Part shown: positions 8,783 to 29,658 of the stretch, in pieces | Layout: the number at the start of each line of letters is the position of its first letter | How positions within the stretch are numbered: position 1 is the stretch's first letter | Assembly (NCBI RefSeq): GCF_006874465.1 | Contig: NZ_VIRL01000018.1 | Span: 62,001-126,000 of the forward strand | Direction: 5' to 3' | Length of the DNA stretch: 64,000 nucleotides | DNA from: Microbispora bryophytorum | GTDB taxonomy: Bacteria; Actinomycetota; Actinomycetes; Streptosporangiales; Streptosporangiaceae | Notes under the pieces: generated by a model | Seen by the model: only the letters and a program-made list of their open reading frames with translations | Database searches by the model: none | What the model was told of the DNA's origin: nothing | Made by a program: the position numbers and the translations under genes

Positions 8783-8926
8783 CCTGGGCGGACGGCGGCG
8801 GGAGTGCCCATCGCCGGCGTCCGTCACACCCGCACCCCGCACGACTTCATGATGCTCAACCCCGCCCGCTCGACGGCGGCCGGCGCCGCCGTCACCCAGG
8901 CCGTCGAAGTACGGAAAGGCGAACTC

Positions 8927-9652
8927 ATGACCACCGCAGAACAGCCCGTTGTCGTCCTCGTCCACGGCGCCTTCGCCGAGTCGGCGAGCTGGAACCGCGT
9001 CATTCAGCGTCTGCACGACCGCGGGCTGACCGCCGTCGCGGCGGCCAACCCGCTGCGGAGCGTGGAGGGCGACGCCGCCTACGTGCGCGACGTCATCGCC
9101 GGCATCGGACGGCCGGTCGTCCTGGTCGGCCACTCCTATGGCGGCATGGTGATCACCCAGGCGGCGGCCGGCGACGACGCCGTGCAGGCCCTCGTGTACG
9201 TCGCCGCCTTCGCACCCGAGCCCGGAGAGAGCGCGCTGGCGCTGTCCGGCAAGTTCGAGGGCAGCAGCCTGGGCGGTGCGCTGGTCGCCTACCCGGTCTC
9301 CTCCGGCGGCAACGAGTTCCGGATCGCCGAGGATACCTTCCACCACCAGTTCTGCGCCGACCTCGACGCCGATGAGGCCGCTCTGATGGCGGCGACCCAG
9401 CGCCCGGTCACCGAACAGGCGCTGACCGACGGGCTGACAGTGAGCGAGCCGGGCTGGCGTACCAAGCCGTCCTGGTTCGTCCACGGCGACCGCGACCTCA
9501 GTATTCCGGCTACGGCGCTGAGGTTCATGGCCGAACGCGCCGGATCGCGCGGAACCCGTGAGATCGCGGGCGCCTCCCACGCCGTCGGGGCGTCCCAGCC
9601 CGACGCGGTGGCCGCAGCCGTCTTCGACGCCGTCGGCCACATACAGGGCTGA
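8927..9652 (+). CDS. alpha/beta-fold hydrolase (third paralogue)
   Basis: A 241-residue cytoplasmic alpha/beta hydrolase very similar in layout to the 3503 and 7135 proteins: HGAF oxyanion motif, GHSYGG nucleophile, Asp in HGDRDLSIP and His in GASHAVGASQP. The ATG at 8927 follows GGAAAGG by 7 bases; the frame is open upstream to 8804 but that extension lacks a ribosome binding site and conserved character. It ends the plus-strand hydrolase/regulator block and faces the oppositely oriented dehydrogenase gene. Confidence 0.87.
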   Translation: MTTAEQPVVVLVHGAFAESASWNRVIQRLHDRGLTAVAAANPLRSVEGDAAYVRDVIAGIGRPVVLVGHSYGGMVITQAAAGDDAVQALVYVAAFAPEPGESALALSGKFEGSSLGGALVAYPVSSGGNEFRIAEDTFHHQFCADLDADEAALMAATQRPVTEQALTDGLTVSEPGWRTKPSWFVHGDRDLSIPATALRFMAERAGSRGTREIAGASHAVGASQPDAVAAAVFDAVGHIQG

Positions 9653-14709: not shown

Positions 14710-14795
14710 CCGTAACGGATTAGTCACCTACTGTATATGATCACCCAAAGTGACTCATTGGCAACATGGAGTCTTCCCGAAGAGTGGAGGCAGAT

Positions 14796-15323
14796 GTGGC
14801 CAGTGAGTTCCAGCGGAAGAAGGTCGGCGGAGTTTTCCGGGCGATGGATGTGGACGGAGACGGCCGGCTGACCGAGGCCGACTTCCAGGCGCTCGCCCGC
14901 CGATGGACGGCCGTCGCCGGATCCGTCGACCCGGAGCGACTCGCAGCCGTCATGACCGGCTGGTGGCCGGTGCTCCAGACCGCCTCCGGCCCCGACGGCG
15001 ACGACGCCGTCACCCTCGACGAGGTGCTCCTCGTCGTGGAAGGACTCGGCGACAGGGCGGACGCCGTCTCCGCCACCGCCGACGCGATGTTCGAGGCCGT
15101 CGACCTCGACGGGGACGGCTTCATCTCCCGCTCCGAGTACGGCGTGCTCGTCGAGACGTGGAACGGGACGCCGGCGGCGACCGACGAGATCTTCCCGCGC
15201 CTGGACCTGGACGGCGACGGCCACCTCACCCGCGACGAGTTCCGCACCCACTGGACGGAGTTCTGGGCGGGCGACAACCCGAGCGCTCCCGGGAGCTACG
15301 TGTTCGGCGCGCTGGTGGAATGA
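14796..15323 (+). CDS. EF-hand calcium-binding protein (calerythrin-like)
   Basis: A 175-residue protein with a four-EF-hand layout. Loops one, three and four are canonical (DVDGDGRLTEAD, DLDGDGFISRSE, DLDGDGHLTRDE); the second (GPDGDDAVTLDE) is degenerate. This matches calerythrin/sarcoplasmic calcium-binding-like proteins that buffer or sense calcium in the actinobacterial cytoplasm. The GTG at 14796 is chosen because GGAGG ends 5 bases upstream; an in-frame ATG at 14766 would add 10 residues but has no ribosome binding site. It converges on the OleB gene with a gap of 13 bases. Confidence 0.93.
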   Translation: MASEFQRKKVGGVFRAMDVDGDGRLTEADFQALARRWTAVAGSVDPERLAAVMTGWWPVLQTASGPDGDDAVTLDEVLLVVEGLGDRADAVSATADAMFEAVDLDGDGFISRSEYGVLVETWNGTPAATDEIFPRLDLDGDGHLTRDEFRTHWTEFWAGDNPSAPGSYVFGALVE

Positions 15324-15336
15324 CCCAGAGGCGGCG

Positions 15337-16263
15337 TCACGCGCCAGGCGGGGTGCGCAGGAACGAGCGGATGACCGGGACGAGATCGGCGTGAGCGTCT
15401 TCCAGCAGGTAGTGGCCCGCGCCGTGATAAAGGCGAGTCCGGGCGGCGGGAAAGCGCCGCTGCCATTCACCCAGCACGGCGCGGTCGAAGACCGGGTCGC
15501 CCAGTCCCCAGGCGATCAGCATGGGCCGGTCGGCGAACTGCGCCAGCGACGTGCCGGTGCCGTGCAGCACCGGCCATGAAGGGTCGCCGGGGCGCAACGG
15601 GATGTCCTGGACGAAGCGCTGGATGGCCACGCGGTGCTCGGGCCGGTCGTAGGGGGCCAGGAACGCCGAGCGCACCGCGGCAGGCATCCGGCGCCGGACG
15701 CCCAGCGGCCGCCAGGTGGCGCCGCGGGCGAAGAGGTTGTGGCGCAGGAACAGGCGCGTTCCCAGCCGGGTGTCGCGCAACACCCGGAACGGCAGCCGCA
15801 GCAGGGGACGCACGCGTTCGCCGTGCGGGTTGGGGAAGGCCGCGGTGTTGAGCAGGACCAGGCGGGCGACCCGGCCGGGGTGGCGGCAGGCCCAGGTCAT
15901 GCCGATCGGCCCGCCCCAGTCGTGCAGCACGAGTGTCCACCCGTGCTCGGGGGCGCCTCCGGCGGTGACGAGGTGTTCGATCAAGGCGTCCAGGTCGTCC
16001 ACGCGGGCGGCCAGGTCGTAGGGGTAACGGTCGGCTCCGGGCTTGTCCGACAGTCCCATGCCGATGTGGTCGGGGGCGATGCAGCGGAACTCCTCGCGCA
16101 GGGCGAGTATCGGCCGCCGCCACAGGTAACTCCAGGAAGGGTTGCCGTGCAGGAACAGCACCGGCTGTCCCGCCCCTTCGTCCAGGTATTGCTGGCGCAG
16201 GCCGTCACGGCGCGGGTGGGCGAACCACCGGGAGGCGAACGGGTAGTCCGGGAACCCGGTCAC
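15337..16263 (-). CDS. oleB: OleB-like alpha/beta hydrolase (beta-lactone decarboxylase)
   Basis: A 308-residue haloalkane-dehalogenase-like alpha/beta hydrolase. It has HGNPSWSYLWR (oxyanion/halide-stabilising region), the Asp nucleophile in VLHDWGGPIG and His in GAGHYLLED. In the long-chain olefin pathway OleB removes CO2 from a cis-beta-lactone to give an alkene (known for the family). The assignment rests on this motif set plus its position directly after OleD, with which it shares a GTGA start/stop overlap. The frame is open far upstream but that stretch is the wrong frame of oleD. In many actinobacteria OleB is fused to OleC; here it is separate. Confidence 0.88.
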   Translation of the reverse strand: MTGFPDYPFASRWFAHPRRDGLRQQYLDEGAGQPVLFLHGNPSWSYLWRRPILALREEFRCIAPDHIGMGLSDKPGADRYPYDLAARVDDLDALIEHLVTAGGAPEHGWTLVLHDWGGPIGMTWACRHPGRVARLVLLNTAAFPNPHGERVRPLLRLPFRVLRDTRLGTRLFLRHNLFARGATWRPLGVRRRMPAAVRSAFLAPYDRPEHRVAIQRFVQDIPLRPGDPSWPVLHGTGTSLAQFADRPMLIAWGLGDPVFDRAVLGEWQRRFPAARTRLYHGAGHYLLEDAHADLVPVIRSFLRTPPGA

Positions 16264-17252
16264 CGGGTGTTCCCCGCGGACAGGTGGGCGGTGAGCCGGG
16301 CCAGTCCTTCCGCCATGCTCACCCGGGGCCGGTAGCCGAGATCGCGGCGGGCCGCGGAGATGTCGAACCAGTGCGCCGTCGATGCCTGCTCCACCAGGAA
16401 CAACAGCGGTGGCAGGTGCGGCGTCCACGGGAGCCGGCGAGCCCGCTCCAGCAGCCGGGCCGCCCGCAGGACCGGTCCGAGCGGTGCCCGGCGGGTCACT
16501 GGGGGCAACCCGGCGGCGCGCAGCAGCAGGTTGAGCCACTCCCCGAAGCCGCAGGGCTCGCCCTGCGTGACGAAGTAGGCCCGGCCCGCCTGCGGTGATC
16601 CGGGACGTAACCGTTCGAGCGCGAGCAGGTGGGCGTCGGCGGCGTTGTCGATGTAGACGGTGTCGATGCTCTTGTCGGTCGTGCCCGGCAGCCACAGCAG
16701 GCGGTGGTGCGCCACCAGCCTGGGCAGGAAGTGCGGATCTCCCGGCCCCCAGATGAGATGCGGACGCAACGCGACCGCCGTGACCTGTCCGGCGGCGGCA
16801 GCGGCGAGGACGAGCCGCTCGGCCTCGGCCTTGGTCCGCGGATAGGCGGCGGGAAAACGGCGGGCGTAGGGCACGGACTCGTCCACTCCCTCCAGGTCCC
16901 GCCCGTCGTGGACGACGCTCGGCGAGGACGTGTGGACCAGGCGTGCCCCGTGGCGCGCGCAGGCGTCCAGCACGTTCCGCGTCCCCGACACGTTGATCTC
17001 CTCGTAGTCCCGGTCCCGACCGTGTACGCCGGCCTTCGCGGCGCAGTGCACGACCGCCTCGCATGCCTCGACGGCGGCCAGCACCGCCGCGCGGTCGCGG
17101 ACGTCGGCCAGGTGCTGGGTGACCCCGAGAGCCGCCAGCGCGGGGCTGCGGTGACGCTGGAGAGCGTGAACGGTGTCACCGCGGGCGGCCAGCCGCCGGC
17201 AGACGGCCTCTCCCAGGAAGCCGCCGCCCCCGGTCACCAGGACTGTCGTCAT
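16260..17252 (-). CDS. oleD: OleD-like NAD(P)H-dependent beta-keto acid reductase
   Basis: A 330-residue extended SDR of the 3-beta-HSD/epimerase type. It has the cofactor motif TGGGGFLG, HCAAKAG, the Ser region HTSSPSVV and the YPRTK catalytic pair. Motifs typical of OleD are visible (LRPHLIWGPGDPHFLPRL, STAHWFDISAARRDLGY). OleD reduces the 2-alkyl-3-keto acid made by OleA to the 3-hydroxy acid. The ATG overlaps the OleC stop (ATGA), and the gene overlaps OleB at its own end, so translation of the three is coupled. An upstream in-frame Met lies within oleC and is disfavoured. Confidence 0.92.
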   Translation of the reverse strand: MTTVLVTGGGGFLGEAVCRRLAARGDTVHALQRHRSPALAALGVTQHLADVRDRAAVLAAVEACEAVVHCAAKAGVHGRDRDYEEINVSGTRNVLDACARHGARLVHTSSPSVVHDGRDLEGVDESVPYARRFPAAYPRTKAEAERLVLAAAAAGQVTAVALRPHLIWGPGDPHFLPRLVAHHRLLWLPGTTDKSIDTVYIDNAADAHLLALERLRPGSPQAGRAYFVTQGEPCGFGEWLNLLLRAAGLPPVTRRAPLGPVLRAARLLERARRLPWTPHLPPLLFLVEQASTAHWFDISAARRDLGYRPRVSMAEGLARLTAHLSAGNTR

Positions 17253-18901
17253 CGGCCCGCCCGGACGCGTCGCGAGGCCCACCGGGCGAGCTCGTGCCGG
17301 CGGATCTTGCTGTTGTGCCGGGCGTCGACCGGGAATCCGGGGTGGAACAGCACCTCCCGAAGCTCCGCGGTGTGCGGATGACGGGCCGCCATATCGAGGA
17401 TGTCCTCCTTCATCCGGCCGTTGTCCCGGGACCCCGGTTCGCGCTCCACGATCAGGACCGCTCGCTGCGCGCCGGCGGGACCGACGCCGACCAGTGCGGT
17501 GCGGCGGACCCCCGGCACGGCGGCGAAGACGGGTTCGACCTGGTCAGTGTGCAGGTCGCCGCCGACCGTGCGGACCCGCTCCGACTTGCGTCCGGCGAAC
17601 CAGAGCCGTCCGTGCCCGTCGAACCGGCCGACGTCGCCCATCCGGTGCCAGACGCGGTCTCCATCGCGGATCCGGGCCAGCGCGGTGGCCCCCGGATCGT
17701 CCAGGTAGGGATCGCTGACGGTGGGGGCGGCCACGGTGATCTCCCCGACCGTGCCGGACGGCACGACCAGATCCTCACTCCACCGTTCGATGGGGTCGTC
17801 GGTGACGGCGATGACGCGCACCTCGGCGCCCGGAAGCGGAGGACCCAGGCAGGTGCCCGCCCCGGCGGCGGTGGCCGCGGCGTGCTCGGCGAGCAGCCGG
17901 CTCTCGATCGCGGCCACCGGCATGCACTCGGTGGCGCCGTACACCGACAGCACCCGCGCCTCGTCACGCAGGCAGCCGCGCAGGCGCTCCATCACCGGCA
18001 TCGGCAGCGGCGCCCCGGCGGACACCACGTCGCCGAGCGTGTCCAGCACCAGGCCGCGGGCGGCGCAGTGCCGTGCGAGCCGGTCCAGCAGCGCGGGAGG
18101 GGCGAACATCCCGGCCACGCGATACCGCTGGATGTCGGCGACCAGAGCGGCCGGGTCGGCCCGCACCGGATGCCGCGGGTCCATGTCCGGGATCACCACG
18201 GTCGCCCCGAACGCCGCCGCTCCCAAAGCGAACGGCGCGAACGTCGACAACACCGGCGTGCCCGGTCGCACCGTGCCCAGCGCGCCCAGCAGGTCGAGTT
18301 GCGCGGTCAGGTGCCGGTGACGCAGCGGTACGCCCTTGGGCGGGCCGGTGGATCCGGAGGTATAGGCGATCAGCGCCAGGTCGTCGGGGCCGGCGGGGGG
18401 CCACCGTACCGGTCCGCGTGACGTCCATGCCGAGCCGCGCCGCCGCCGCGTGGGGACCGTGATGGAAACGCGGACGTCGGGGGTCCAGCCCAGCAGCCTC
18501 CTGGCCAGCTGAACGGCGGGAATCGCGATGAACGCCTCGGGCGCCGCCTGACGCAGACAGCGCCTGATCGCGTCGAGCGGCAGCCCGGGATCGACCAGCA
18601 CCGGCACCGCGCGGAGCCGTACCAGGGCGACGACCAGCGCGCCCAGCTCTGGGCCCGGCGGCACCAGCAGGCCGGTACGCATGCCCGGGCGGATCCCGGC
18701 CTCGGCGAGGGCGGCGAGGGCATGGTCCACCGACCGCGACAGCTGCCCGTAGGTGGTGGCCGCCGGGGTGCGGCCACCGAGTTGGCAGGCGATGACGTCG
18801 GGCTGCTCGCGGAACCAGCGCTCGGCGCGGACGATCAGCTCACTGATCGGCGCGGGCGGCTCGGCGGGGCCGGAGCCGGGAGGGGTCGCCTGTGTGGTCA
18901 C
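17249..18901 (-). CDS. oleC: OleC-like AMP-dependent beta-lactone synthetase
   Basis: A 550-residue ANL-superfamily adenylating enzyme. It has the phosphate loop YTSGSTGPPKG, the YGATE motif (VYGATECMPVAAIES, OleC style) and GDVGRFDGHGRLWFAGR. The C-terminal signature FHPGFPVDARHNSKIRR is characteristic of OleC and its beta-lactone synthetase relatives (NltC, LstC). The family adenylates a 2-alkyl-3-hydroxy acid and closes it to a beta-lactone. The GTG start lies 4 bases after the OleA stop; an in-frame GTG at 18934 would overlap oleA. Products could be a stable lactone, or an alkene if the adjacent OleB acts. Confidence 0.92.
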   Translation of the reverse strand: MTTQATPPGSGPAEPPAPISELIVRAERWFREQPDVIACQLGGRTPAATTYGQLSRSVDHALAALAEAGIRPGMRTGLLVPPGPELGALVVALVRLRAVPVLVDPGLPLDAIRRCLRQAAPEAFIAIPAVQLARRLLGWTPDVRVSITVPTRRRRGSAWTSRGPVRWPPAGPDDLALIAYTSGSTGPPKGVPLRHRHLTAQLDLLGALGTVRPGTPVLSTFAPFALGAAAFGATVVIPDMDPRHPVRADPAALVADIQRYRVAGMFAPPALLDRLARHCAARGLVLDTLGDVVSAGAPLPMPVMERLRGCLRDEARVLSVYGATECMPVAAIESRLLAEHAAATAAGAGTCLGPPLPGAEVRVIAVTDDPIERWSEDLVVPSGTVGEITVAAPTVSDPYLDDPGATALARIRDGDRVWHRMGDVGRFDGHGRLWFAGRKSERVRTVGGDLHTDQVEPVFAAVPGVRRTALVGVGPAGAQRAVLIVEREPGSRDNGRMKEDILDMAARHPHTAELREVLFHPGFPVDARHNSKIRRHELARWASRRVRAGR

Positions 18902-18905
18902 GGGA

Positions 18906-19922
18906 TCACCACCGCACGACGACGATTCCGGCACTGGCCCCGCTGGCCAGGCCGACCAGGGCGACCAGGTCGCCGCGCCGCACCCGTCCCGAGCCGACCA
19001 CCCGTGCCAGTTGCACGAGCAGGGTCGACGCCACGAGGTTGCCGTGCTGGGCGATGGTGACGACGACCTTGCCCTGCGGAATACGCACCTGGTCGCAGAA
19101 CCACCACAGCGTCGCCAGCGACGCCTGGTGCACGCAGATGGCCGCGAAGTCGTCCCAGGTCAGCCCGAGATCGGCGAGGGGTTTGTGGAAGACGGCGTAG
19201 TCGATCTCCTCGAAGCCGCGCGCCAGCCGGGCCGCGTCGACGATGAGCGGCCCGATGGTGGGCCGGTCCGCCCACGGGTCGCTGGTGAGGTTGTCCACGG
19301 CGGAGACCGCCGCCGGCCACCCGGCGGAGTACGCGGAGAACCGGTGGGCGAGCACTCCCGGTTCGGCGCCGGCCTCCAGCAGCACCGCGGCGCCGGCGTC
19401 GGAGACGGTGTAGGACGCGGCGACGGTGACGTACTCCTCGGCGCTGGACAGGGTCCACGGTGTGCCGGCGGTGGGCAGCTCTCCGCAGCAGATGAGGACC
19501 CGCCGATGACGGCCGCCGGAGATCAGCGCGTCGGCCACCTGGATGGCGTTCAGCACGCTGTTGCAGGCGTTGCGTACGTCGAAGACCGGGCAGCAGGCCC
19601 CGATCTTGGCGGCGACCATGTGCCCGGTGGCCGGCTCGACGGCGTCGGACGACACCCCCGCGTAGATGAGCAGGTCGAGGTCGGCGGCCTGAAGGTCGCA
19701 CTCCTCCAGGACCCGGCGGGCGGCGTGCGCCGCCAGGTCGGACGGCTTCTCGTGGGGAGGGGCGATGTGCCGGCGCCGGACGCCGCTGTGGTCGTGGATC
19801 AGCCCCCGGGGCAGGTCCAGTGCCGGATTGCGGTCGGCGAGCCGGTCTTCCAGCTCGGCTGTGCTCAGTGTGGTCTCGGGCAGGTGGGCGGCCACCCCGG
19901 CCAGCCGGGTGTGCAGGGTCAA
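18906..19922 (-). CDS. oleA: OleA-like thiolase-fold Claisen condensing enzyme
   Basis: A 338-residue KAS III-like protein. The catalytic triad is Cys120 (DVRNACNS), His265 (ICVHQAS) and Asn295 (AQHGNLVAS). Residues DAVEPAT (Glu96) match the position of the glutamate base that OleA uses for non-decarboxylative Claisen condensation, which separates it from FabH. The start is a TTG overlapping the PKS stop codon (TTGA), with AGAGAGG 6 bases upstream inside the PKS gene. Its place immediately after a PKS that lacks a thioesterase suggests that it unloads the polyketide chain from the carrier protein; that is inference. The second acyl partner is unknown. Confidence 0.88.
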   Translation of the reverse strand: MTLHTRLAGVAAHLPETTLSTAELEDRLADRNPALDLPRGLIHDHSGVRRRHIAPPHEKPSDLAAHAARRVLEECDLQAADLDLLIYAGVSSDAVEPATGHMVAAKIGACCPVFDVRNACNSVLNAIQVADALISGGRHRRVLICCGELPTAGTPWTLSSAEEYVTVAASYTVSDAGAAVLLEAGAEPGVLAHRFSAYSAGWPAAVSAVDNLTSDPWADRPTIGPLIVDAARLARGFEEIDYAVFHKPLADLGLTWDDFAAICVHQASLATLWWFCDQVRIPQGKVVVTIAQHGNLVASTLLVQLARVVGSGRVRRGDLVALVGLASGASAGIVVVRW

Positions 19923-22900
19923 CGCAGGCCTCTCTTCTGTGCCGTGCCGGCGGGCTGCCGGTCGTCGCGCAGCCCGAGACGGATGAGCAGGCTCCGGGCG
20001 ATGTCGGCGACGGTCCCGCCGCTGCGCATCAGCTCCATGGGCGGGATGTCGATGCCGAACCGGTTCCGGATCGAGGTCAGCAGTTCGGCGGCCATGAGGG
20101 AGTCCAGTCCGTACTCGTCCAGCCGCCGGTCGTCGGCGATCTGGTCGGCGGGGACGAGCAGGACGGCGGACAGCAAGCCGGTGATCTGCTCGGTGAGGTA
20201 CGCGTACGCCTGCTCGTAGGTCGCCCCGGCCAGCAGCGCCTGCAGGTCGGGCGCCTGCTGTTCCGCACCGGGCGGCAGCACCAGGGACAGCCACGGACGC
20301 TGCAGGCTGGGCAGGACCTGCCGCAACCGGCCCCAGTCGCAGCGGCCCACCACGGCCACGTCGGCCTGCTCGCCGAGCATGTGCTCCACGGCGTCCAGCG
20401 CCCGGCCGGCAGGCATCGGCGGGATCCCGGCCTTGGCCAGCACCTCGCCTTGTGTGCCCCGGGTCAGCACCCCGGTGTCCGCGAGCGCGCCCAGGCAGGC
20501 CGCGAGTGCCGGCAGGCCCTGCCGGCGCCGCCGCCGGGCCAGCGCCTCCAGGAACAGGTTCGCGGCGACGTACGACGTCTGACCGATGTTGCCGACGGTG
20601 GTGAGGGAGGAGTACATGACGAACAGGTCGAGGGGCCGATCCCGGGTCAGCTCGTCCAGCACCACCGCGCCGGCGACCTTGGGGTGGAGCACGGCCCGGA
20701 TCCGGTCATCGCCGAGGTCGGTGAGCGGCCCGTCGTCAAGGTGCATGGCCGCGTGCACGACGCCACGCAGCGGGCGGCCCCCGGCGTCCAGGTCCTGCAG
20801 GATCCGCCACATGGCGTCGCGGTCGGCCACGTCGGCCGCGTACGCGCGGACCTCCACCCCCGAGCTCTGCAGTTCCGCAAGCAGGTCGGGGGCTTCGGGC
20901 GACTCGGCGCCCCGGCGGCCGACCAGGGCCAGGTGGCGGGCGCCCCGCCGGGCGAGGCGGCGAGCGGTCGCCGCACCGAACCCGCCCAGGCCGCCGGTGA
21001 CCAGGTAGGCCCCCTCGGGATCCAGGCGTGGCGCCGTCGGCCGGGGCCGGACGGCGACGGGTTCGTCGCGTGGATCGAAGGACACCACGACCTTTCCGAT
21101 GTGCCGGGAATGGCGCATCATGGCGAAGGCGTCCGCGACGCGTGCGGCCGGATACACCGTGTGCGGCAGCGGCCGGAACTCCCCGGACCGGTAGAGGGGC
21201 GCCGCCTCCGCCGTGCTGTCCGCCATCAGCTCGGGCGCCTTCCACATGAGGGTGCCGACGTCCACGCCGTAGAACGCGATGTTGTCGGAGAACGGCCGCA
21301 GCAGCAGGGACCCGTTCTGGTAGATGTCCCGCTTGCCGAGCTCGATGAACCGGCCGCCGTGCCGCAGACATTCCACGCCCCGGGTGATGGCCTCCCCGGC
21401 CAGCGAGTTGAGCACGATGTCCACGCCCCGGCCCCCGGTCAGTTCCTTGACCTGATCGGCGAAGTGCAGGCTGCGCGAGTCCAAGGCGTGGTCGGCGCCC
21501 ATGGCGAGCAGCAGGTCGCGTTTGGCGGCGGTGCCGGCGGTCGCGATCACGCGGGCTCCGTGGAACCGGGCGTACTGCAGCGCGGCCAGGCCGACCCCAC
21601 CGGCGCCACCGTGGACCAGGATCGTCTCACCGGCTTTGATCCGTGCGCAGTGCCCCAGCGAATGGTGCACGGTGGAGAACGCCATCGGCATGGTGGCGGC
21701 CTCGGTGAAGGTCATCCCCTCGGGGACGGCGACGGCCGCCCACGCCTTGACCCTGGCGTGACTGGCGAATCCGACGGGTCCCGCGGCCATGACCCGGTCA
21801 CCGGGCTTCGTCCCGGTGACGGCGGCGCCGACGGCGGTGACGATCCCGGCGCATTCCAGGCCCAGCTCGTGCCCGCCGAAGACCGCTTCGACGGCCTCGG
21901 CGGGCAGCAGGTTCACCGCGCGCATGACGTCGCGGTAGTTCAGCCCGATCGCCCGCACCTCGACCACGATCTCGTCAGGATCGGGCTGCGGCATCGGGAT
22001 CTCCTCCCACGCCAGCGTGTACGACAGCCCGGGATCGCACACCCTGAGCCGGTAGGCGTCGCCCGAACCGACGGGCAGGTCGCGGGTGTGCTCGCCCGGC
22101 TCGATCAGCCGCGGCACGAAACGTCCCCCACGGGTGAGCAGGATCTCGTCCTCCTCGCCCGGGTCGAGCAGTTCCGCCGCCAGGCGGCCGGCGTCCTGCG
22201 CGGTGTCACCGGTGGGGTGCAGGCAGAGCCTGCGTATCACCGGCCGTGGCTGCTCGTTGCCCAGCGAACGCGTCGTCCCCCAGGTCGCCGCGTCCTCGGG
22301 GTGGAGCCGGACGTCGGCGACGTGGGGTTCCGGCAGCGCGGCGCAGGGGCGGGCCACCAGCCACAACGTGGTCGCGACGTGCTCGGGCAGTTGCTCGCAG
22401 GCCAGCGCGACGGCCCGCAGCGCCGCGGCCCGCCGGGTGATCCGCTCGACGGCCGCCTCCGGATCCGTGTCGTCCGCTCCGCCCAGGACGATCGCGATGG
22501 TGATCGTCTGGGCGGTGGGCGGGAAGTGATCGATCCAGTGGTCGGGATCGTCGCTGAGCGGCGAGTGGAGCACGTCGCCGCCGCGGGTTCCCAGCAGAGC
22601 CCCCAGCTCGGTGGTCAGCGCGTCGGTGCCGTCCTCACCGGCGAGGATCCACGTGCCGTCGGCGTCCGGCAAGGGGTGCGCGGGGGCCGGAGCCGGAGCG
22701 GTGGCGGGAGCGGCGGCCAGCAGCACCGAGAAGTCGCCGGCTGCGAGTGCGTCGTCGTCGCCGACCTGGACGACCTCCGTGTAGCCGGCCTCCGCCAGCA
22801 CCTCCGGCCATTGCTCCCGCGACAGCAGCGGCGAGGCCGGGCGCAGGTGCCGGTCGGTGAAGTTCCAGAACTCCTCCTGCATGCCGAGGAACGGCAGCAG

Positions 22901-25900
22901 GGTCCCCACCCGGTGAGGCTCGGCGATGAGCAGGTGGCCGCCGGGAACCAGAAGGGTGGACAGATGGCGCAGCGCAGCGGGCAGGTCACGGGCCAGGTGC
23001 AGGCTGTTCGCCGCGATCACGAGATCGAATCCGCCCGCGGTCAGTCCCTGCCCGACCGGATTCGCGTCCAGGTCGAGGACGGCGTAGTCGACGAAGTCGA
23101 AGCCGGCGAAGCGCTGCCGCAGCCGGGTCAGCGCCGCCTCGGCGAGGTCGGTGACCAGGTATCGGGTGCGGTCGGCGGGCAGGACGGGCAGCAGCATGGC
23201 GGTGGTGCCGCCCGTCCCCGCACCGGCTTCCAGGACACGCAGCGGCCGGTCGGCCGGCCATCTCCTCACGATCTGCTCGACGAGTGCCCGGGCGATCCGG
23301 TTGGTGAACAGGTTGACCGGCCCGACGTCGTGGAACTGCTCCATCAGCTCATGACCGCCGCCGGAATCCAGGACGTCGGAGCCGGCCCGCCGGCCTGAGA
23401 GCAGTTCGGGCAGGCACCGGCCGACCCGTACGGACAGGGCGCTCTGCGCGGCGAAGGCGGCTCCCCGGGCGAGGAGGTCCCGGTGGGGATCACGGTGGGG
23501 ATCACTGTGTAGCTCGCGCGAGTCTGGACTTGGCGGCTTCAGGCGCTCCAGCAGCCCGTGCTGTTCCAGCAGGGGCAGGGCCGCGCGGAGCATCCGCCGG
23601 TGGTGCGCCCCCGGGCACGCTTCGATCAGTTCCTCGATGTCGCTTGGCCGCTCGGCGGTCAGCTCGCCGAGCGCGCCGGCCAGCGTGTGAGCGAAGACCT
23701 CTTCGAGCCGTGCCGCGTACCGCGGGTAGTCCAGCTCGTGCCACGTCGAACGCAGTCGGTCGATCCGCTCGGCCGCGCCGGACAGGATCTGCCCGGGGCG
23801 GGGGGCCGGCCACGGCGCGGCGGGCGCGCCGGCCCGGGGTGCGGCCCGCAGCGCCACCTCGTAACGGGTGACCGGGGTGATGTGGACGCCGGGCATCCGG
23901 CGTAGCCGGCAGCCCTCCACTTCGGCGGCGATCCGGCCGTCGTGGCCGGCGACCACGATGTCCCAGCAGACCTCCTCGGCACTGCTGGAACGTTCCCGCA
24001 CGTGCACCAGCCCCTGCGCCGGGGGCGTTCCCCACAGGCGGACGGAGCCGATGGCGGCGGGCATGTAGCCGCGGCCCGATCGCAGCGACTCCACCAGCCA
24101 CAGCACGCCGGCCTGCAGCGCGCTGTCCAGCACCACCGGATGCATCTGGTAGCGCCCCTGCCCCTGCTCCGGGCACGAGTAGGCGCCCAGCACCTCTCCC
24201 TCGCCCGCCCACAGCTCGGTCAGGACCTGGAACTCCGGCCCCCACACCATGTGCCCTTCGGCGGCCCGCGCGTAGTAGCCGGGCACGTCCACAGGCGTGC
24301 GGATGCGAGCGCGCAGCGCGGCCACGTCCAGCGGCGGCGGGATCCGGCGCAGCAGGGGCCGCACCCGGGCCCGGAAGTGCTCGCGGGGCTGCTCCGCCTG
24401 CCGGTCGGCGCTGGCCACGGTGACCACCCCGGTCTCGGCGTGGAGCGACGTCTGCGCGTACACCGGAGCGGCGGCGGCCTGTGAGGGCACCACCATGGCC
24501 CGGCTGATGTCGACCCTGTCCACCTCCACCGCCTCGGCGGCGTCCGGCATGGTCAGCCGGGCGGCGGCGATGGCCATCTCCACGTATCCGGTGGCCGGCA
24601 TGACGGCGGCGCCGCCGGCCCGGTGGTCGGCCACCCAGGGCACCCGCACCCGGTCGATCTCCCCCTGCCAGGTGGGGTCCAGCACCGGCATCCGCTGTCC
24701 CAGCAGCGGGTGCCGGATCGTCGTGTCGATGTTGGTCTGCACCCAGGTGTGCGGGCCGCCGATCCAGTGCCGCTCGCGCTGCCAGGGATAGGCCGGCAGC
24801 GACCGCACCGCGCCGGGGCGGGGAAAGTACCGGTCCCAGTCGAGCCGCGCACCGGCCGCGACGAGTTCGGCGACCGCGCGGCGGACGAGCGCCGGGCCCG
24901 GCTCGTCGCGGCGCAGGGTGGTCACGACGGCCGTGCGTACCCGCGCCGTGCCGCTGATGCGACGCAGGTACGAGCGCAGCACCGGATGCGGGCCGATCTC
25001 CAGCAGCACGTCGAAGCCGTCGCCGAGCACCCGCTCGACCGCCGCCGCGAACCGGACCGGTTCCCGGACGTTCCGCCACCAGTACGCCGCGTCCAGCTCC
25101 GAACCCCGGATCAGGTCGCCTGTCACCGTGGACACCAGAGGGATGTGCGCCGGGCAGGGCCGCAGCCCGGCGAGTCCCTCCGCCAGGGGCTGCCGCACCG
25201 GATCCATGGCGCCGCTGTGGAAGGCGTAGTCCAGGTCCAGCTCCCGGAAGAAGGTCTCGCGCGAGGAGAGGTCCTCGCACAGTGACTTCAGCGATCCGTC
25301 CGGTCCGGCGATCGTGACGTCGCGGTCGGAGTTGACCGCCGCGATCTCCAGTTGCGGATAGCCGGCCAGGATCTGCCTGGCCGCGGCCTCGGGCAGCCCG
25401 AGCGCGGCCATCCGGCCCTGCCCCCGGGTGGCCGACTGCGCCATGCCGCGCTCGGCGATCACCCGCGCCGCCTGGGCCAGTGACAGGGCGCCGGCGGTGT
25501 AGGCGGCGGCGACCTCGCCCACGCTGTGGCCGAGCACCACTCCCGGCCGTACGCCCGCGGCCTTGAGCATCTCGACCAGGCCGACCTGGACGGCGAACAG
25601 CAACGGCTGCGCCACTTCGGTCGCCGACAGCCGTGACTGGTCGGCGGGCAGGGACAGCTCCTCGAGCACCGACCAGCCGAGCCGAGCGGACAATTCGGCG
25701 TCGACCGCTTCCACGGCCGAGCGGAAGGTCTGGTCGGACAGCAGGTCGGCGCCCATCCCGGCCCACTGCGAACCGTTGCCGGAGAACACGAACGCCATCC
25801 GTCCGTGCTCCACCGCCTCCGCCTCCGCCACTGTTTCCGCCACCGTCGCGTCCGCCGGGTTCGTCAGCGCCCGAGCCGCCGCGGCGGCGGAATCGGCGAG

Positions 25901-27427
25901 GACCACGGCGCGGTGCCGGTGGACGCCACGCCGGCGGGCCGCGGTGTAGGCCACGTCGTAGAAATCCCGTTCGTCGAGGGACGCCAGGTGCGCGGCCGTT
26001 CGTTCCACGGCCTGCTGGAGCGCGGTCCGGCTGCGCGCGGACACGACGACGGGCACTGTCCGGGCGGGCGGGGGCGTCATCGCCTGGGGGAGGGGTGGTG
26101 CGGCCAACGCCACGTGAGCGTTGGCGCCGCCGAAGCCGAAGGAGTTGACTCCGGCCACGGGCCGCTCGCCTGCCTCGTCCAGCGGTCGCGGCTCGACGGT
26201 GACGCTCAGCCCCAGGGCGTCGAAGTCGATGCGAGGGTTGAGCGTGGCGGCGTGCAACGAGGGCGGGATCATCCGGTGCCGGAGCACCAGCAGGGCCTTG
26301 AACAGTCCCGGCATGCCGGAGGCGGGCTCCAGGTGCCCCAGGTTGGACTTCACCGAGCCGATGGGCAGGACTCCGCGTGTACGCCGGCTGCCCAGCGCCC
26401 GCCCCAGCGCCTGGCATTCGGCCGGATCCCCAGCCTGGGTGCCGGTGCCGTGCGCCTCCACGTACACGATCTCGTCGGGGCTGATGCCCGCCGTGGCGTA
26501 CACCTGCCGTAACAGGGCTTCCTGCGCTTCGGCGTTCGGCAACGCCAGCCCCATGGTGTGGCCGTCGTTGTTGGTGGCGGCGCCGACGATGACGCCGTGA
26601 ACACGGTCGCCGTCCGCGATCGCGTCGGCCAGGCGCTTGAGCACCACCACACCGCCGCCCTCCGCGCGTACGAACCCGTCGGCGTCGGCGGAGAACGCCC
26701 GGCACCGGCCGGTCGGCGACAGCATCGACGCCTGGCTGAAACCGATGAAGGGGCCGGGGCTGAGCAGCAGGTTGACGCCGCCGGCCAGCGCCACCCGGCT
26801 GGATCCCTCCGCGAGGGACCGCCAGGCCCGCTCCACGGCCGTCAACGCGGAGGAGCACGCCGTGTCGATGCTCATGCTCGGCCCGCGCAGGTCGAAGAAG
26901 TGCGACAGCCGGTTGGCCGCGATGGACAGGGTTCCCCCCGACATCGAGTACGGCCCCAGGGCCCCAGGCTCCAACGCCTGCATCGTGCCGTAGGCCGGAT
27001 CGGAGATGCCGATGAACACCCCGGTGTCCGTGCCCGCCAGCACCGCCGGATCGATGCCCGCGTCGTCCAGGGCCTCGACCGCCATCTCCAGGAGCAACCG
27101 CTGCTGCGGGTCCATCGAGGCGGCCTCTTTGGGGGAGATGCCGAAGTAGGCGGCGTCGAACGCGGTGACGTCCTCGTCGAGGAAGCCTCCGGCCCGGGTG
27201 TAGCTCCTGTTCGGCCTCGGCATGGTGTCGTCGACGAACCGATCGGCGTCGAACCTGCTCGGCGGGATCCGGCCGACCAGATCGGCGCCCTGCCGCAACG
27301 CCTGCCACAGCCCGTCCAGATTCACGATCCCACCAGGCAGTCGGCATCCCACGCCCACCACCGCCGCCGCGTGCTCCGGCCATGCCTGTTCCGCTGTCGG
27401 GTCCGCTGTCGGGTCGTCCGCGCTCAT
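19919..27427 (-). CDS. single-module type I PKS, KS-AT-DH-MT-ER-KR-ACP, no thioesterase
   Basis: A 2502-residue synthase with all domains apparently active. KS about 18-445: DTACSS with Cys191, EAHGTGT, KSNLGH. AT about 540-850: GHSVGE with Ser635, and YAFHS, where the Phe favours malonyl-CoA. DH about 900-1180: HRAGGAAVMP with His935, VLDSALQ with Asp1101. C-methyltransferase about 1340-1560: LEAGAGTGG. ER about 1790-2110: HGGAGGVGLAALQ. KR about 2135-2310: TGGLGGFG, Ser/Tyr in YSSLTTVGNIGQTSY, and LDD, a B-type mark. ACP about 2405-2485: GLDSL, Ser2443. The domain order is that of fungal highly reducing PKS, so iterative use giving a saturated, methyl-branched chain is inferred. ATG 27427 has GGAAGG upstream. 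OleA follows by overlap and would serve for release. Confidence 0.95.
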   Translation of the reverse strand: MSADDPTADPTAEQAWPEHAAAVVGVGCRLPGGIVNLDGLWQALRQGADLVGRIPPSRFDADRFVDDTMPRPNRSYTRAGGFLDEDVTAFDAAYFGISPKEAASMDPQQRLLLEMAVEALDDAGIDPAVLAGTDTGVFIGISDPAYGTMQALEPGALGPYSMSGGTLSIAANRLSHFFDLRGPSMSIDTACSSALTAVERAWRSLAEGSSRVALAGGVNLLLSPGPFIGFSQASMLSPTGRCRAFSADADGFVRAEGGGVVVLKRLADAIADGDRVHGVIVGAATNNDGHTMGLALPNAEAQEALLRQVYATAGISPDEIVYVEAHGTGTQAGDPAECQALGRALGSRRTRGVLPIGSVKSNLGHLEPASGMPGLFKALLVLRHRMIPPSLHAATLNPRIDFDALGLSVTVEPRPLDEAGERPVAGVNSFGFGGANAHVALAAPPLPQAMTPPPARTVPVVVSARSRTALQQAVERTAAHLASLDERDFYDVAYTAARRRGVHRHRAVVLADSAAAAARALTNPADATVAETVAEAEAVEHGRMAFVFSGNGSQWAGMGADLLSDQTFRSAVEAVDAELSARLGWSVLEELSLPADQSRLSATEVAQPLLFAVQVGLVEMLKAAGVRPGVVLGHSVGEVAAAYTAGALSLAQAARVIAERGMAQSATRGQGRMAALGLPEAAARQILAGYPQLEIAAVNSDRDVTIAGPDGSLKSLCEDLSSRETFFRELDLDYAFHSGAMDPVRQPLAEGLAGLRPCPAHIPLVSTVTGDLIRGSELDAAYWWRNVREPVRFAAAVERVLGDGFDVLLEIGPHPVLRSYLRRISGTARVRTAVVTTLRRDEPGPALVRRAVAELVAAGARLDWDRYFPRPGAVRSLPAYPWQRERHWIGGPHTWVQTNIDTTIRHPLLGQRMPVLDPTWQGEIDRVRVPWVADHRAGGAAVMPATGYVEMAIAAARLTMPDAAEAVEVDRVDISRAMVVPSQAAAAPVYAQTSLHAETGVVTVASADRQAEQPREHFRARVRPLLRRIPPPLDVAALRARIRTPVDVPGYYARAAEGHMVWGPEFQVLTELWAGEGEVLGAYSCPEQGQGRYQMHPVVLDSALQAGVLWLVESLRSGRGYMPAAIGSVRLWGTPPAQGLVHVRERSSSAEEVCWDIVVAGHDGRIAAEVEGCRLRRMPGVHITPVTRYEVALRAAPRAGAPAAPWPAPRPGQILSGAAERIDRLRSTWHELDYPRYAARLEEVFAHTLAGALGELTAERPSDIEELIEACPGAHHRRMLRAALPLLEQHGLLERLKPPSPDSRELHSDPHRDPHRDLLARGAAFAAQSALSVRVGRCLPELLSGRRAGSDVLDSGGGHELMEQFHDVGPVNLFTNRIARALVEQIVRRWPADRPLRVLEAGAGTGGTTAMLLPVLPADRTRYLVTDLAEAALTRLRQRFAGFDFVDYAVLDLDANPVGQGLTAGGFDLVIAANSLHLARDLPAALRHLSTLLVPGGHLLIAEPHRVGTLLPFLGMQEEFWNFTDRHLRPASPLLSREQWPEVLAEAGYTEVVQVGDDDALAAGDFSVLLAAAPATAPAPAPAHPLPDADGTWILAGEDGTDALTTELGALLGTRGGDVLHSPLSDDPDHWIDHFPPTAQTITIAIVLGGADDTDPEAAVERITRRAAALRAVALACEQLPEHVATTLWLVARPCAALPEPHVADVRLHPEDAATWGTTRSLGNEQPRPVIRRLCLHPTGDTAQDAGRLAAELLDPGEEDEILLTRGGRFVPRLIEPGEHTRDLPVGSGDAYRLRVCDPGLSYTLAWEEIPMPQPDPDEIVVEVRAIGLNYRDVMRAVNLLPAEAVEAVFGGHELGLECAGIVTAVGAAVTGTKPGDRVMAAGPVGFASHARVKAWAAVAVPEGMTFTEAATMPMAFSTVHHSLGHCARIKAGETILVHGGAGGVGLAALQYARFHGARVIATAGTAAKRDLLLAMGADHALDSRSLHFADQVKELTGGRGVDIVLNSLAGEAITRGVECLRHGGRFIELGKRDIYQNGSLLLRPFSDNIAFYGVDVGTLMWKAPELMADSTAEAAPLYRSGEFRPLPHTVYPAARVADAFAMMRHSRHIGKVVVSFDPRDEPVAVRPRPTAPRLDPEGAYLVTGGLGGFGAATARRLARRGARHLALVGRRGAESPEAPDLLAELQSSGVEVRAYAADVADRDAMWRILQDLDAGGRPLRGVVHAAMHLDDGPLTDLGDDRIRAVLHPKVAGAVVLDELTRDRPLDLFVMYSSLTTVGNIGQTSYVAANLFLEALARRRRRQGLPALAACLGALADTGVLTRGTQGEVLAKAGIPPMPAGRALDAVEHMLGEQADVAVVGRCDWGRLRQVLPSLQRPWLSLVLPPGAEQQAPDLQALLAGATYEQAYAYLTEQITGLLSAVLLVPADQIADDRRLDEYGLDSLMAAELLTSIRNRFGIDIPPMELMRSGGTVADIARSLLIRLGLRDDRQPAGTAQKRGLR

Positions 27428-27552
27428 GTCGCCCTTCCTGCTCAGGTCCACTACGTCTCGGCATTTCGCCGTCGGCTTGCTGTCCCGGCCGGGGTCCACC
27501 TGGCGCGCCCGGCGCAGGGCCGGGCGGTCGGCCACCATGTCATCACAACTCT

Positions 27553-27699: not shown

Positions 27700-27730
27700 T
27701 GTCACAGACGGGGACCCTGTCCTGTCTTGT
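27700..27730 (+). promoter_or_regulatory. Putative ECF41 sigma-factor promoter of the SDR gene
   Basis: TGTCACA (27700-27706) is an exact match to the -35 element known for ECF41 sigma factors. Sixteen bases later lies TGTC, close to the expected CGTC -10 element. The SDR GTG follows about 40 bases downstream, and the ECF41 gene is the next gene beyond the SDR. Confidence 0.55.
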
Positions 27731-27768
27731 CGGCAGACCGAAACTCTCTGTTGACCAGGAGGTTTGCT

Positions 27769-28698
27769 GTGGATGCCGAAAACGTGCCCGATCTGACCGG
27801 CAAGCTGGCCGTGGTGACGGGCGGCAGTGACGGGCTCGGTCTCGGCTTGGCGATCCGCCTGGCCGGGGCCGGGGCCGAGGTCGTGCTGCCGGTCCGCAAT
27901 CCCGCCAAGGGAGCCGCCGCCGTCCAGAAGATCCTTGCGGCGGTGCCGGAGGCCGCCGTCTCCACCCGTGAGCTCGACCTGGCCTCGCTGGAATCGATCG
28001 CGGCGCTCGCCGCCACCCTTCGACACGAGGCCCGCCCGATCGACATCCTGATCAACAACGCGGGCGTGATGGCCCCCGCCACCCGGCAGACCACCACGGA
28101 CGGCCTGGAGCTGCAGTTCGGCACCAACCACATCGGCCACGTGGCGCTGGTGGCACGACTCCTGCCGCTGCTGCGCCTCAGAGGGGCGCGAGTCACCACG
28201 ATGTCCAGCAGCGCCGCCCGCTCCGCCGCGATCGACTGGGACGACCTGCAGAGCGAACGGAAGTATTCGCCGGTCCGCTCGTACGGTCAGTCGAAGCTGG
28301 CCAACCTGCTCTTCGGGCTCGAACTGGACCGGCGCAGCAAGGCCGGCGGATGGGGCGTCGTCAGCACCGTCGCACATCCCGGCACGACCCTGACCAATCT
28401 CTACGCGTCCGGCCCGAACATGGGGCGCACCCGCTCCGCACCCTACGAGCGGATCATGAAGCTGCTCCTCCGGTGGGGTCTGTTCGTGCAGACGGTCGAC
28501 GCCGGGCTGCGGCCGGCCCTGTACGCGGCCACCAGCCCACAGGCGCAGGGCGGCCGTTTCTACGGCCCCGACGGCATCGGCCAGTTCACCGGTGGGCCGA
28601 CGGAGTTGTCCCTCTACAAATCCGTCCGGCCCGAGCGCGACGCGGCCCGGCTGTGGACCGTCTCCGAGCGGCTCGCCCAGGTCGAGTTCCCCGTCTGA
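27769..28698 (+). CDS. SDR-family oxidoreductase, likely ECF41 target
   Basis: A 309-residue SDR of the retinol-dehydrogenase/protochlorophyllide-reductase-like group. It has [12 protein letters not shown] at the cofactor site, NNAGVMAP, the Ser in MSSSAA and YGQSK for catalysis. The GTG start has a perfect AGGAGG 6 bases upstream; the open frame before it is not supported. It is divergent from the PKS gene and tail-to-tail with the ECF41 sigma gene, and an ECF41-type promoter precedes it. ECF41 factors are usually linked to oxidoreductase, epimerase or carboxymuconolactone-decarboxylase genes, which fits. The substrate is unknown. Confidence 0.9.
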
Positions 28699-28749: not shown

Positions 28750-29658
28750 TCAGCCCGCGGCGGACAGTGCGGCGATCTTGGCGGGGTTCATCATCCACAG
28801 CACCTGGTCGATGCCGTCGTCGGAGGCGTTGACGGTGAGGACCGCGAACAGCTCGCCGTCGTGGCGCAGCAGAGCGGCCGCCTGCCCGTTCACGTCGGCC
28901 CAGTCCACCTCGACCCCGGCCCAGAACCGGTCCGCGAACGCTCTGACGTATTTCGCGACCCGGAACGCGCCGAACACGGGGATGCGCGAGGCTCGTACGG
29001 CGCCGCCGCCGTCGGAGTAACTGATGACGTCCGCGGCGAGGAGCTCTTCCAGCGCGGCAAGGTCGCCCGAGCGGGCGGCGGCGACGAAGGCGGTGAGCAG
29101 TCTGCGCTGGTGGGCCCGGTTCACCGGTGCCCGGCGCTCGGAGGCGATGTGCCTGCGTGCCCTGCTGACGAGCTGCCGCACCGCGACCTCGCTCGCCTCG
29201 ATGATCTCGGCGATCTCCCGGTAGGGATAGTCGAACGCTTCCCGCAGCACGTAGGCCGCGCGTTCGGTGGGCGAGAGCTTCTCCAGCAGGAGCAGGACCG
29301 CGAAGCTGAGGGCCTCGCCTCGCTCGGCGCCGAGGTGAGGGTCGTTACCGGTGTCGACGGGTTCGGGAAGCCACGGGCCGACGTACGTCTCGCGGCGGAC
29401 CCGCGCGGACTGGAGGGCGTTGATGGCCAGGCGCGTGGTCACCGTCGCCAGGAACGCCCCCGGGTCGGCCACGATGCCGCGGTCGTATGCCTGCCAGCGC
29501 AGCCAGACGTCCTGTAACAGGTCTTCCGCTTCGGTGGAACTGCTCAGGATCCGGTACGCGATTCCGAACAGGCGCGGCCGCACGCTCTCGAACGTGGCAG
29601 CCGCCTGGTCGAGGTCCTCGGTCCCGCTGTGCTGGCTCCTCGCGCCGATGTCCCCCAT
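28750..29658 (-). CDS. ECF41-type RNA polymerase sigma factor with SnoaL-like C-terminal domain
   Basis: A 302-residue SigJ/ECF41 factor. Sigma-70 region 2 (YRILSSSTEAEDLLQDVWLRW) and region 4 (LSPTERAAYVLREAFDYPYREIAEI) are followed by a fused SnoaL-2-like domain. The two motifs that define ECF41 are present: WLPEP in the linker between regions 2 and 4, and YSDGGG at the start of the C-terminal domain. In this group the fused C-terminal domain replaces an anti-sigma factor and controls activity. It converges on the SDR gene, its likely target. Confidence 0.95.
   Translation of the reverse strand: MGDIGARSQHSGTEDLDQAAATFESVRPRLFGIAYRILSSSTEAEDLLQDVWLRWQAYDRGIVADPGAFLATVTTRLAINALQSARVRRETYVGPWLPEPVDTGNDPHLGAERGEALSFAVLLLLEKLSPTERAAYVLREAFDYPYREIAEIIEASEVAVRQLVSRARRHIASERRAPVNRAHQRRLLTAFVAAARSGDLAALEELLAADVISYSDGGGAVRASRIPVFGAFRVAKYVRAFADRFWAGVEVDWADVNGQAAALLRHDGELFAVLTVNASDDGIDQVLWMMNPAKIAALSAAG

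Follow-up and report, generated by a model that had tools for sequence, protein, structure and literature searches.

Operon architecture and coding content

The stretch of 64,000 nucleotides analysed here (henceforth the window) comes from the 7.85 Mb genome of the actinomycete Microbispora bryophytorum (contig NZ_VIRL01000018.1) and contains a minus-strand row of five genes from position 27427 to 15337: a type I polyketide synthase (PKS) followed by homologues of OleA, OleC, OleD and OleB. The PKS combines ketosynthase (KS), acyltransferase (AT), dehydratase (DH), C-methyltransferase (MT), enoyl reductase (ER), ketoreductase (KR) and acyl carrier protein (ACP) domains in this order (Table 1). 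C-terminal of the ACP, a Pfam scan of its 2502 residues, made along with scans of further proteins of the window (23 scanned in all), recovers no domain and no thioesterase (TE). The successive spacings between the five genes are -4, +4, -4 and -4 bases, computed with the start codon nearest to the stop of the preceding gene, and no further gene sits between them; judged by this spacing, the five abutting genes are one operon. The oleA gene starts with TTG, overlapping the PKS stop, and an alternative start of the PKS is possible at 27538. Both the Pfam assignments and the spacing agree with a preliminary description of this DNA, which had read the same operon and domain order from the letters. 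A search of the genome itself, at the thresholds used, returned no second OleA- or OleC-like gene, FabH aside. The five genes probably form one pathway, in which a TE-less, fully reducing PKS would supply OleABCD.

Table 1. Features of the operon, of the domains of its PKS and of other genes in the window
Feature	Coordinates	Strand	Basis
Type I PKS, 2502 aa, KS-AT-DH-MT-ER-KR-ACP, no TE	19919..27427	-	Pfam, closest solved structure, active-site motifs
KS domain, residues 22-393	26249..27364	-	PF00109/PF02801; DTACSS, EAHGTGT, KSNLGH
AT domain, residues 546-857	24857..25792	-	PF00698; GHSVGE, YAFHS
DH domain, residues 906-1179	23891..24712	-	PF21089/PF14765; His and Asp motifs
C-MT domain, about residues 1379-1550	22778..23293	-	PF13489/PF08242; CurJ C-MT best structure match
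ER domain, about residues 1797-2116	21080..22039	-	TIGR02824 (1797-2116, below cut-off), PF08240/PF00107/PF13602 (from about 1817); HGGAGGVG
KR domain, residues 2139-2316	20480..21013	-	PF08659; Rossmann, Ser and Tyr motifs
ACP domain, residues 2413-2478, last in PKS	19994..20191	-	PF00550; GLDSL serine
OleA-like thiolase, 338 aa, NACN-type	18906..19922	-	Active-site residues, tree, AlphaFold model
OleC-like beta-lactone synthetase	17249..18901	-	NF045786 (554 bits), PRK09274 over cut-off, tree
OleD-like 2-alkyl-3-oxoalkanoate reductase	16260..17252	-	NF042422 (357 bits); identity to canonical OleD
OleB-like beta-lactone decarboxylase, HDWGG nucleophile motif	15337..16263	-	Motifs common with canonical OleB
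SDR gene, upstream flank	27727-28698	+	Pfam
Sigma-70-family (ECF-like) factor, upstream flank	28750-29658	-	Pfam
EF-hand protein gene, downstream flank	14766-15323	+	Pfam
Alpha/beta-hydrolase gene	8804-9652		
Alpha/beta-hydrolase gene	7135-7941		
NRPS-like protein, 1386 aa	46114-50274	+	

Conservation of the gene order

A scan of 297 Streptosporangiaceae genomes (OleA criterion E <= 1e-90) found an OleA of the window type in 31 of them, at 34 places, all of which were read; 29 pairings of a place with a locus were verified as identical DNA. The order PKS-OleA-OleC-OleD-OleB is present at 22 of the 34 places. The other 12 places fall into four groups: seven with OleA and ACP-KS-OleC-OleD-OleB; one with OleA and ACP-KS only in 15 kb; three with OleA and then a PKS; and one (G500) with OleA-OleC-OleD-OleB. 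In one of the OleA-then-PKS genomes (G017), a different contig has OleB-OleD-OleC-KS-ACP with a PKS C-terminus close by (L180). The genomes G451, G477 and G505 hold two window-type OleAs each. Closer to the window, a survey of 60 related genomes found a close OleA orthologue in six of the 15 same-genus genomes, its own included, and all six have the five-gene order; the same-genus genome G005 and Microbispora rosea ATCC 12950 (L032) are identical in the DNA around oleA. A further scan of named genomes with seven OleA queries yielded 79 loci, drawn from the best 80 of 89 relatives, of which 14 show the five-gene order. These 14 are spread over the genera Microbispora, Microtetraspora, Sphaerimonospora, Nonomuraea, Sphaerisporangium, Thermocatellispora and Planotetraspora. 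The tight packing recurs as well: OleC and OleD overlap by 4 bases in 20 of 22 loci and by 1 base in the other two, and OleD and OleB overlap by 4 bases in 21 of 22.

Beyond the five-gene order, PKS and OleA are adjacent in several other layouts (L169, L173, L023, L110 and L187/L201). In Streptomyces sp. CB03234 (L110) a 52% identical PKS is divergent from OleA, and OleC, OleD and OleB were not seen in the 21 kb read. In G235, from a different family, a PKS of 48% identity and the same domain layout, with a degenerate MT motif I, is divergent from OleA-OleB-OleC-OleD-KS. A discrete ACP and KS also adjoin relatives of the window OleA: at eight of the 12 places without the five-gene order, and in L056, L064, L186 and L211 (in the Streptomyces loci L056 and L064 both were identified by Pfam). 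A motif scan for discrete ACPs returned none in 56 loci of the glycosyltransferase/P450 (GT/P450) type discussed below and nine in 19 others; it missed Pfam-confirmed ACPs in L056 and L186, and the count of zero in 56 is therefore no proof of absence. As several gene orders pair OleA with a PKS or an ACP, the association is not tied to one order.

Since the five-gene order recurs at 22 of 34 places, the linkage is more than chance. The view that the PKS only neighbours the ole genes, with no functional relation between them, draws on nothing beyond the places where OleA lacks a PKS and is strongly disfavoured by this conservation and by the adjacency of PKS and OleA in the other layouts just listed.

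Some of these arrangements are of note in their own right. A second architecture combines OleA, OleC, OleD and OleB with a FabF-like KS and a discrete ACP; it is found in the Streptosporangiaceae loci L168, L171 and L174-L178 (L177 being Nonomuraea wenchangensis; the ACP and KS of L174 are confirmed by Pfam). L180 is grouped with them and has the PKS C-terminus, its OleA lying on another contig; in the stretches read of the other loci there is no window-type PKS. Streptomyces sp. NBC_01294 has a linear plasmid (L211, NZ_CP108424.1, 8994-12990) on which a phosphopantetheine-binding protein/ACP, a KS, an SDR and an OleA homologue are consecutive; one end of the record is 5 to 9 kb away.

The polyketide synthase

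Compared against solved structures only, the PKS is closest to the mycobacterial mycocerosic acid synthase (MAS; 989 bits), followed by other bacterial PKSs (747 and 722 bits), animal fatty acid synthase (FAS; 648 bits) and fungal LovB (641 bits). Pks2 ranks second among the NCBIfam models matching it, and the PfaA model TIGR02813 gives 301 bits, below its cut-off of 1010. The preliminary description had called this PKS fungal-style. The domain order is indeed that of the fungal highly reducing PKSs; in sequence, MAS outscores LovB and the MT domain is nearest, among structures, to the bacterial CurJ C-MT, and a fungal origin was rejected on the two structure scores. MAS and Pks2, the closest relatives by sequence, are likewise fully reducing single-protein synthases of branched chains, and neither is known to release its chains by an integrated TE. 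MAS itself is not known to carry an MT, and its methyl branches come from methylmalonyl-CoA; unlike it, the PKS of the window has a CurJ-like C-MT after the DH.

An alignment of 24 PKSs (the window and 23 loci; L041, whose PKS is cut by a contig end, was omitted) finds in every one the Cys and the second His of the KS, the Ser of the AT, the His and Asp of the DH, the Tyr of the KR and the Ser of the ACP. The AT motif YAFHS, which by the motif rule we take to point to malonyl-CoA, suggests a malonyl specificity. The MT of the window retains the S-adenosylmethionine (SAM) motif and a His and a Glu that align with CurJ, presumably the catalytic pair. The His is kept in 23 of the 24 PKSs. Eleven PKSs (L042, L043, L044, L164, L166, L167, L169, L170, L172, L182 and L201) have substituted or lost the Glu and retain the other checked motifs; six of these losses fall in the genus Nonomuraea. 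Given these losses, some relatives may no longer methylate, and the 11 PKSs offer a natural series for testing this.

A divergent branch of OleA

The window OleA has Glu96, Cys120, His265 and Asn295 exactly where the preliminary description had placed them. Each of the 22 five-gene loci retains all four, and the residues share alignment columns with those of canonical OleAs, Xanthomonas OleA showing the corresponding LEPST and NACL stretches. By this triad and the Glu117-equivalent it is a predicted head-to-head Claisen thiolase. The presence of the glutamate, previously put forward as OleA-type, stands; the pyrone synthase PpyS has an equivalent residue too (PMC4578411), and the Glu alone is therefore no proof of OleA.

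The protein falls in a separate branch, with a mean identity to canonical OleA of 25.6%, to which the Xanthomonas OleA does not belong. Its mark is the residue after the catalytic Cys (position 121): Asn in 79 of 79 named loci and 51 of 51 tree members, giving NACN, and Leu in 15 of 15 canonical OleAs. A published survey searched for OleA with EPxx[AS]x(14,18)DxxNACL (PMC7158056), a search pattern rather than a functional definition of OleA. The pattern matches 15 of the 15 canonical OleAs, none of the 51 branch sequences and none of the 79 named loci; the survey's pattern would therefore miss the NACN branch, which in its closest form is carried by 31 of the 297 Streptosporangiaceae genomes sampled.

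The AlphaFold model of OleA (pLDDT 92.5) has a TM-score of 0.86 to both FabH 4dfe and OleA 4ku3_B, and the fold comparison fails to split OleA from FabH: the top three matches are FabH 4dfe chains, with OleA chains next. Stand-alone KASIII enzymes that prime other PKSs exist, and the window OleA could in principle be one, priming the PKS with an unusual starter and taking no part in off-loading. The KASIII of the daunorubicin PKS matches it weakly and FabH structures match it as well as OleA structures do; nevertheless Glu96 is an OleA/PpyS residue, two aligned FabHs having Phe at this position, and such a role would leave OleC, OleD and OleB unexplained, making it very unlikely.

Head-to-head ketosynthases outside the Ole pathway offer another comparison. 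The substrates of MxnB and CorB, of myxopyronin and corallopyronin, are PKS chains. In these systems too one stand-alone ketosynthase of the KASIII type couples two substrates (PMC5724707); they differ in having Val at the position that is Glu in OleA and PpyS (PMC4578411), and in their alpha-pyrone products. The window OleA has Glu96 at this position. A PpyS-like enzyme forming a pyrone or ketone, with OleC, OleD and OleB acting on something else, would fit the shared catalytic Glu (PMC4578411) and the loci L169 and L110, which have OleA beside a PKS and no OleC, OleD or OleB in the stretch read. In all 22 five-gene loci, however, the same operon also holds OleD, OleC and OleB, the enzymes that act on what OleA makes, and on this gene order we consider the reading highly improbable.

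OleC, OleD and OleB and a possible mixed kinship of the operon

The family signatures previously noted for the remaining three enzymes are borne out. For OleC, NF045786 is the best of 97 NCBIfam families, at 554 bits under a cut-off of 900, and PRK09274 is passed (531 bits against 478). For OleD, NF042422 is the best of 31 families, at 357 bits under a cut-off of 580, and the SDR YxxxK motif is present as YPRTK. OleB scores as haloalkane-dehalogenase-like (152 bits, under the cut-off of 241); its HDWGG, DPVF and GH.LE motifs (nucleophile, acid and His) align with canonical OleB, and an OleB is present in all 22 five-gene loci.

We compared the five-gene group with two sets of clusters. The canonical reference comprises 15 or 16 actinobacterial clusters, chosen by OleD similarity, to which the mean identities are 25.6% for OleA, 37.0% for OleC, 45.5% for OleD and 39.8% for OleB. 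The second set is of the OleA-glycosyltransferase-P450-OleC-OleD type, to which the loci L051-L109 largely belong by their OleC and OleD matches and by the open reading frames read in five of them (Pfam confirms the glycosyltransferase of three and the P450 of one); GT/P450 loci gave no OleB match. Against six to eight of these the mean identities are 45.5% for OleA (8 loci), 31.3% for OleC and 35.5% for OleD. The identities differ by enzyme, so that the kinship indicated by OleA is not the one indicated by its partners. In the trees, which like the means took in only 8 to 10 GT/P450 loci, the OleA of the five-gene group, analysed without the FabH of its own genome, clusters with that of the GT/P450 clusters against canonical OleA (96/96). 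The corresponding OleC clades with canonical OleC (100/99) in a tree whose outgroup is not one clade, L057 standing apart. Long branches were flagged in the trees. Forcing an OleC-like grouping on OleA is rejected moderately (p-AU 0.033), by a test chosen after the trees had been seen, and another forced grouping is not rejected (p 0.23). Together these comparisons suggest that the operon is a mosaic, its OleA nearer the lactone-side branch and its OleC and OleD nearer the olefin side.

This bears on the end product, which the preliminary description had left as a beta-lactone or a branched alkene. Because OleB is present with intact motifs, the alkene is better supported, and the beta-lactone less so. 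Conceivably a methyl-branched polyketide beta-lactone is the end point of the pathway or its main secreted product, with OleB being weak, acting late or serving as a self-protection hydrolase. Actinobacterial OleACD clusters do produce beta-lactones (PMC7064751), and the OleA groups with that of the GT/P450 clusters, where OleB was not seen; lipstatin-type OleACD beta-lactone clusters likewise differ from the operon described here in lacking OleB. The constancy of OleB in the five-gene loci, its aligned catalytic motifs in the window, the placement of OleC with olefin-type OleC and the closer identity of OleD to olefin-type OleD all speak for the alkene, and render a beta-lactone end product unlikely.

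A proposed route from PKS to alkene

The PKS would act iteratively, using malonyl-CoA and SAM to assemble on its ACP an acyl chain that is saturated and methyl-branched. OleA would transfer this chain from the ACP to Cys120, and Glu96 of the partner OleA subunit would take a proton from the alpha carbon of this chain. Head-to-head condensation with a second acyl thioester, which could be a further PKS chain or derive from a fatty acid, would follow, and OleD, OleC and OleB would then turn the condensation product into an alkene. As OleA joins chains head to head, the condensation would itself be the off-loading step. Most likely, then, OleA off-loads the ACP of the PKS by a head-to-head Claisen condensation and OleD, OleC and OleB yield an alkene. 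Of the single wired pathway claimed in the preliminary description, the linkage is conserved across several genera; we infer the hand-off from ACP to OleA, the head-to-head step and the product, because the five abutting genes include no TE, OleA is repeatedly paired with a PKS or a discrete ACP, and the Pfa systems discussed below provide a precedent.

Several observations weigh against this route. The synthase could feed OleA via a free acid and CoA, two alpha/beta-hydrolase genes being nearby. OleA can occur without the PKS, as there are places that lack it: seven of the 34 have ACP-KS-OleC-OleD-OleB beside OleA and no such PKS in the stretch read, and G500 has no PKS within the 48 kb read around its OleA-OleC-OleD-OleB. 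The gap between PKS and OleA exceeds 100 bases in five of the 22 five-gene loci (the value for L043 being an artefact), and that between OleA and OleC is 93 and 121 bases in two of them. The MT Glu, present in the window, is kept in only 13 of the 24 aligned PKSs. OleA scores 144 bits against a cut-off of 285 with PRK09258, which we take to be the OleA-type model, yet this is the best of 17 NCBIfam families; and its best structure matches mix FabH and OleA.

The first of these points amounts to an alternative, in which the PKS chain is hydrolysed and activated as acyl-CoA, and OleA uses acyl-CoA only, like the Xanthomonas enzyme in vitro. Characterised OleA enzymes do use acyl-CoA (PMC7064751), and the two hydrolase genes are about 6 and 7 kb past the end of OleB. 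Against this stand a PKS that has no TE, five abutting genes without another among them, the dedicated ACPs that adjoin relatives of this OleA, and in vivo work on Pfa that indicates acyl-ACP (PMC6463001); we regard it as rather improbable.

If the proposed route is true, the five-gene set converts PKS-programmed branched chains into alkenes or beta-lactones, with the head-to-head condensation as the release. Possible products include methyl-branched fuels or lubricants, or hydrolase inhibitors. The operon also makes the question of the OleA substrate, ACP- or CoA-bound chains, directly testable; for Pfa and OleA it has been argued from in vivo evidence. A broader proposition has three parts: that Claisen condensation of the OleA type, rather than a TE, a reductase or an acyltransferase, releases the chain of a type I PKS; that a sub-branch of the NACN-type OleAs is dedicated to carrier proteins; and that rare actinomycetes use it to make undescribed methyl-branched polyketide olefins or beta-lactones. 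Taken as a whole, we see this proposition as evenly balanced between right and wrong.

Relationship to known Ole systems

The published precedent is that of the Pfa synthases and OleABCD of Shewanella and Photobacterium, in which a carrier-bound synthase feeds OleA, OleBCD finish the hydrocarbon and the operons can adjoin (PMC6463001). In Photobacterium profundum SS9 the pfa and ole operons are adjacent and OleA was argued to draw directly on the Pfa ACPs; expression of OleA with pfaA-E in E. coli gave the expected ketone, and the authors concluded that OleA uses acyl-ACP in vivo (PMC6463001). Of 80 genomes examined, 44 have both secondary-lipid synthases and ole genes, often linked (PMC3098273), and with this co-occurrence published the principle is already known. 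What sets the window apart from Pfa is a single-protein MAS-like PKS with MT, ER and KR, one tight operon, and a predicted chain that is saturated and branched rather than polyunsaturated. The preliminary description named no characterised cluster that co-encodes a highly reducing PKS with all four Ole enzymes. For Pfa and ole genes the linkage had been published (PMC6463001); an operon that joins OleACDB to a fully reducing PKS of MAS-like sequence with an MT was not found in the open-licence literature, most subscription journals lying outside it.

With the canonical OleABCD systems (Xanthomonas campestris and Micrococcales) the operon shares homologous OleC, OleD and OleB and an OleA that keeps the triad and the Glu; it departs from them in the low identity of that OleA, in NACN for NACL and in the co-encoded PKS. 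Among groups without a PKS or ACP, the actinobacterial OleA-glycosyltransferase-P450-OleC-OleD clusters have the closest OleA branch, and they differ in their more distant OleC and OleD and in showing no OleB match. A profile-based survey took in an OleA from such a background, that of Actinoplanes atraurantiacus (OleA-glycosyltransferase-OleC-P450-OleD), and found it active (PMC7064751). By gene content, rather than by sequence, this OleA would belong to the NACN branch.

Neighbouring genes and other observations

The genes for a sigma factor and an EF-hand protein that flank the operon in the window (Table 1) likewise flank it in M. rosea (L032). A Nonomuraea gerenzanensis record (L210, NZ_LT559118.1) of 11.85 Mb, listed as a plasmid and with only 10 annotated features, holds an OleA homologue of 53.5% identity. 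Elsewhere in the window the NRPS-like protein combines an adenylation domain, a PCP, a thioesterase and a C-terminal tautomerase-like domain, with about 500 residues after the adenylation domain that have no Pfam match.

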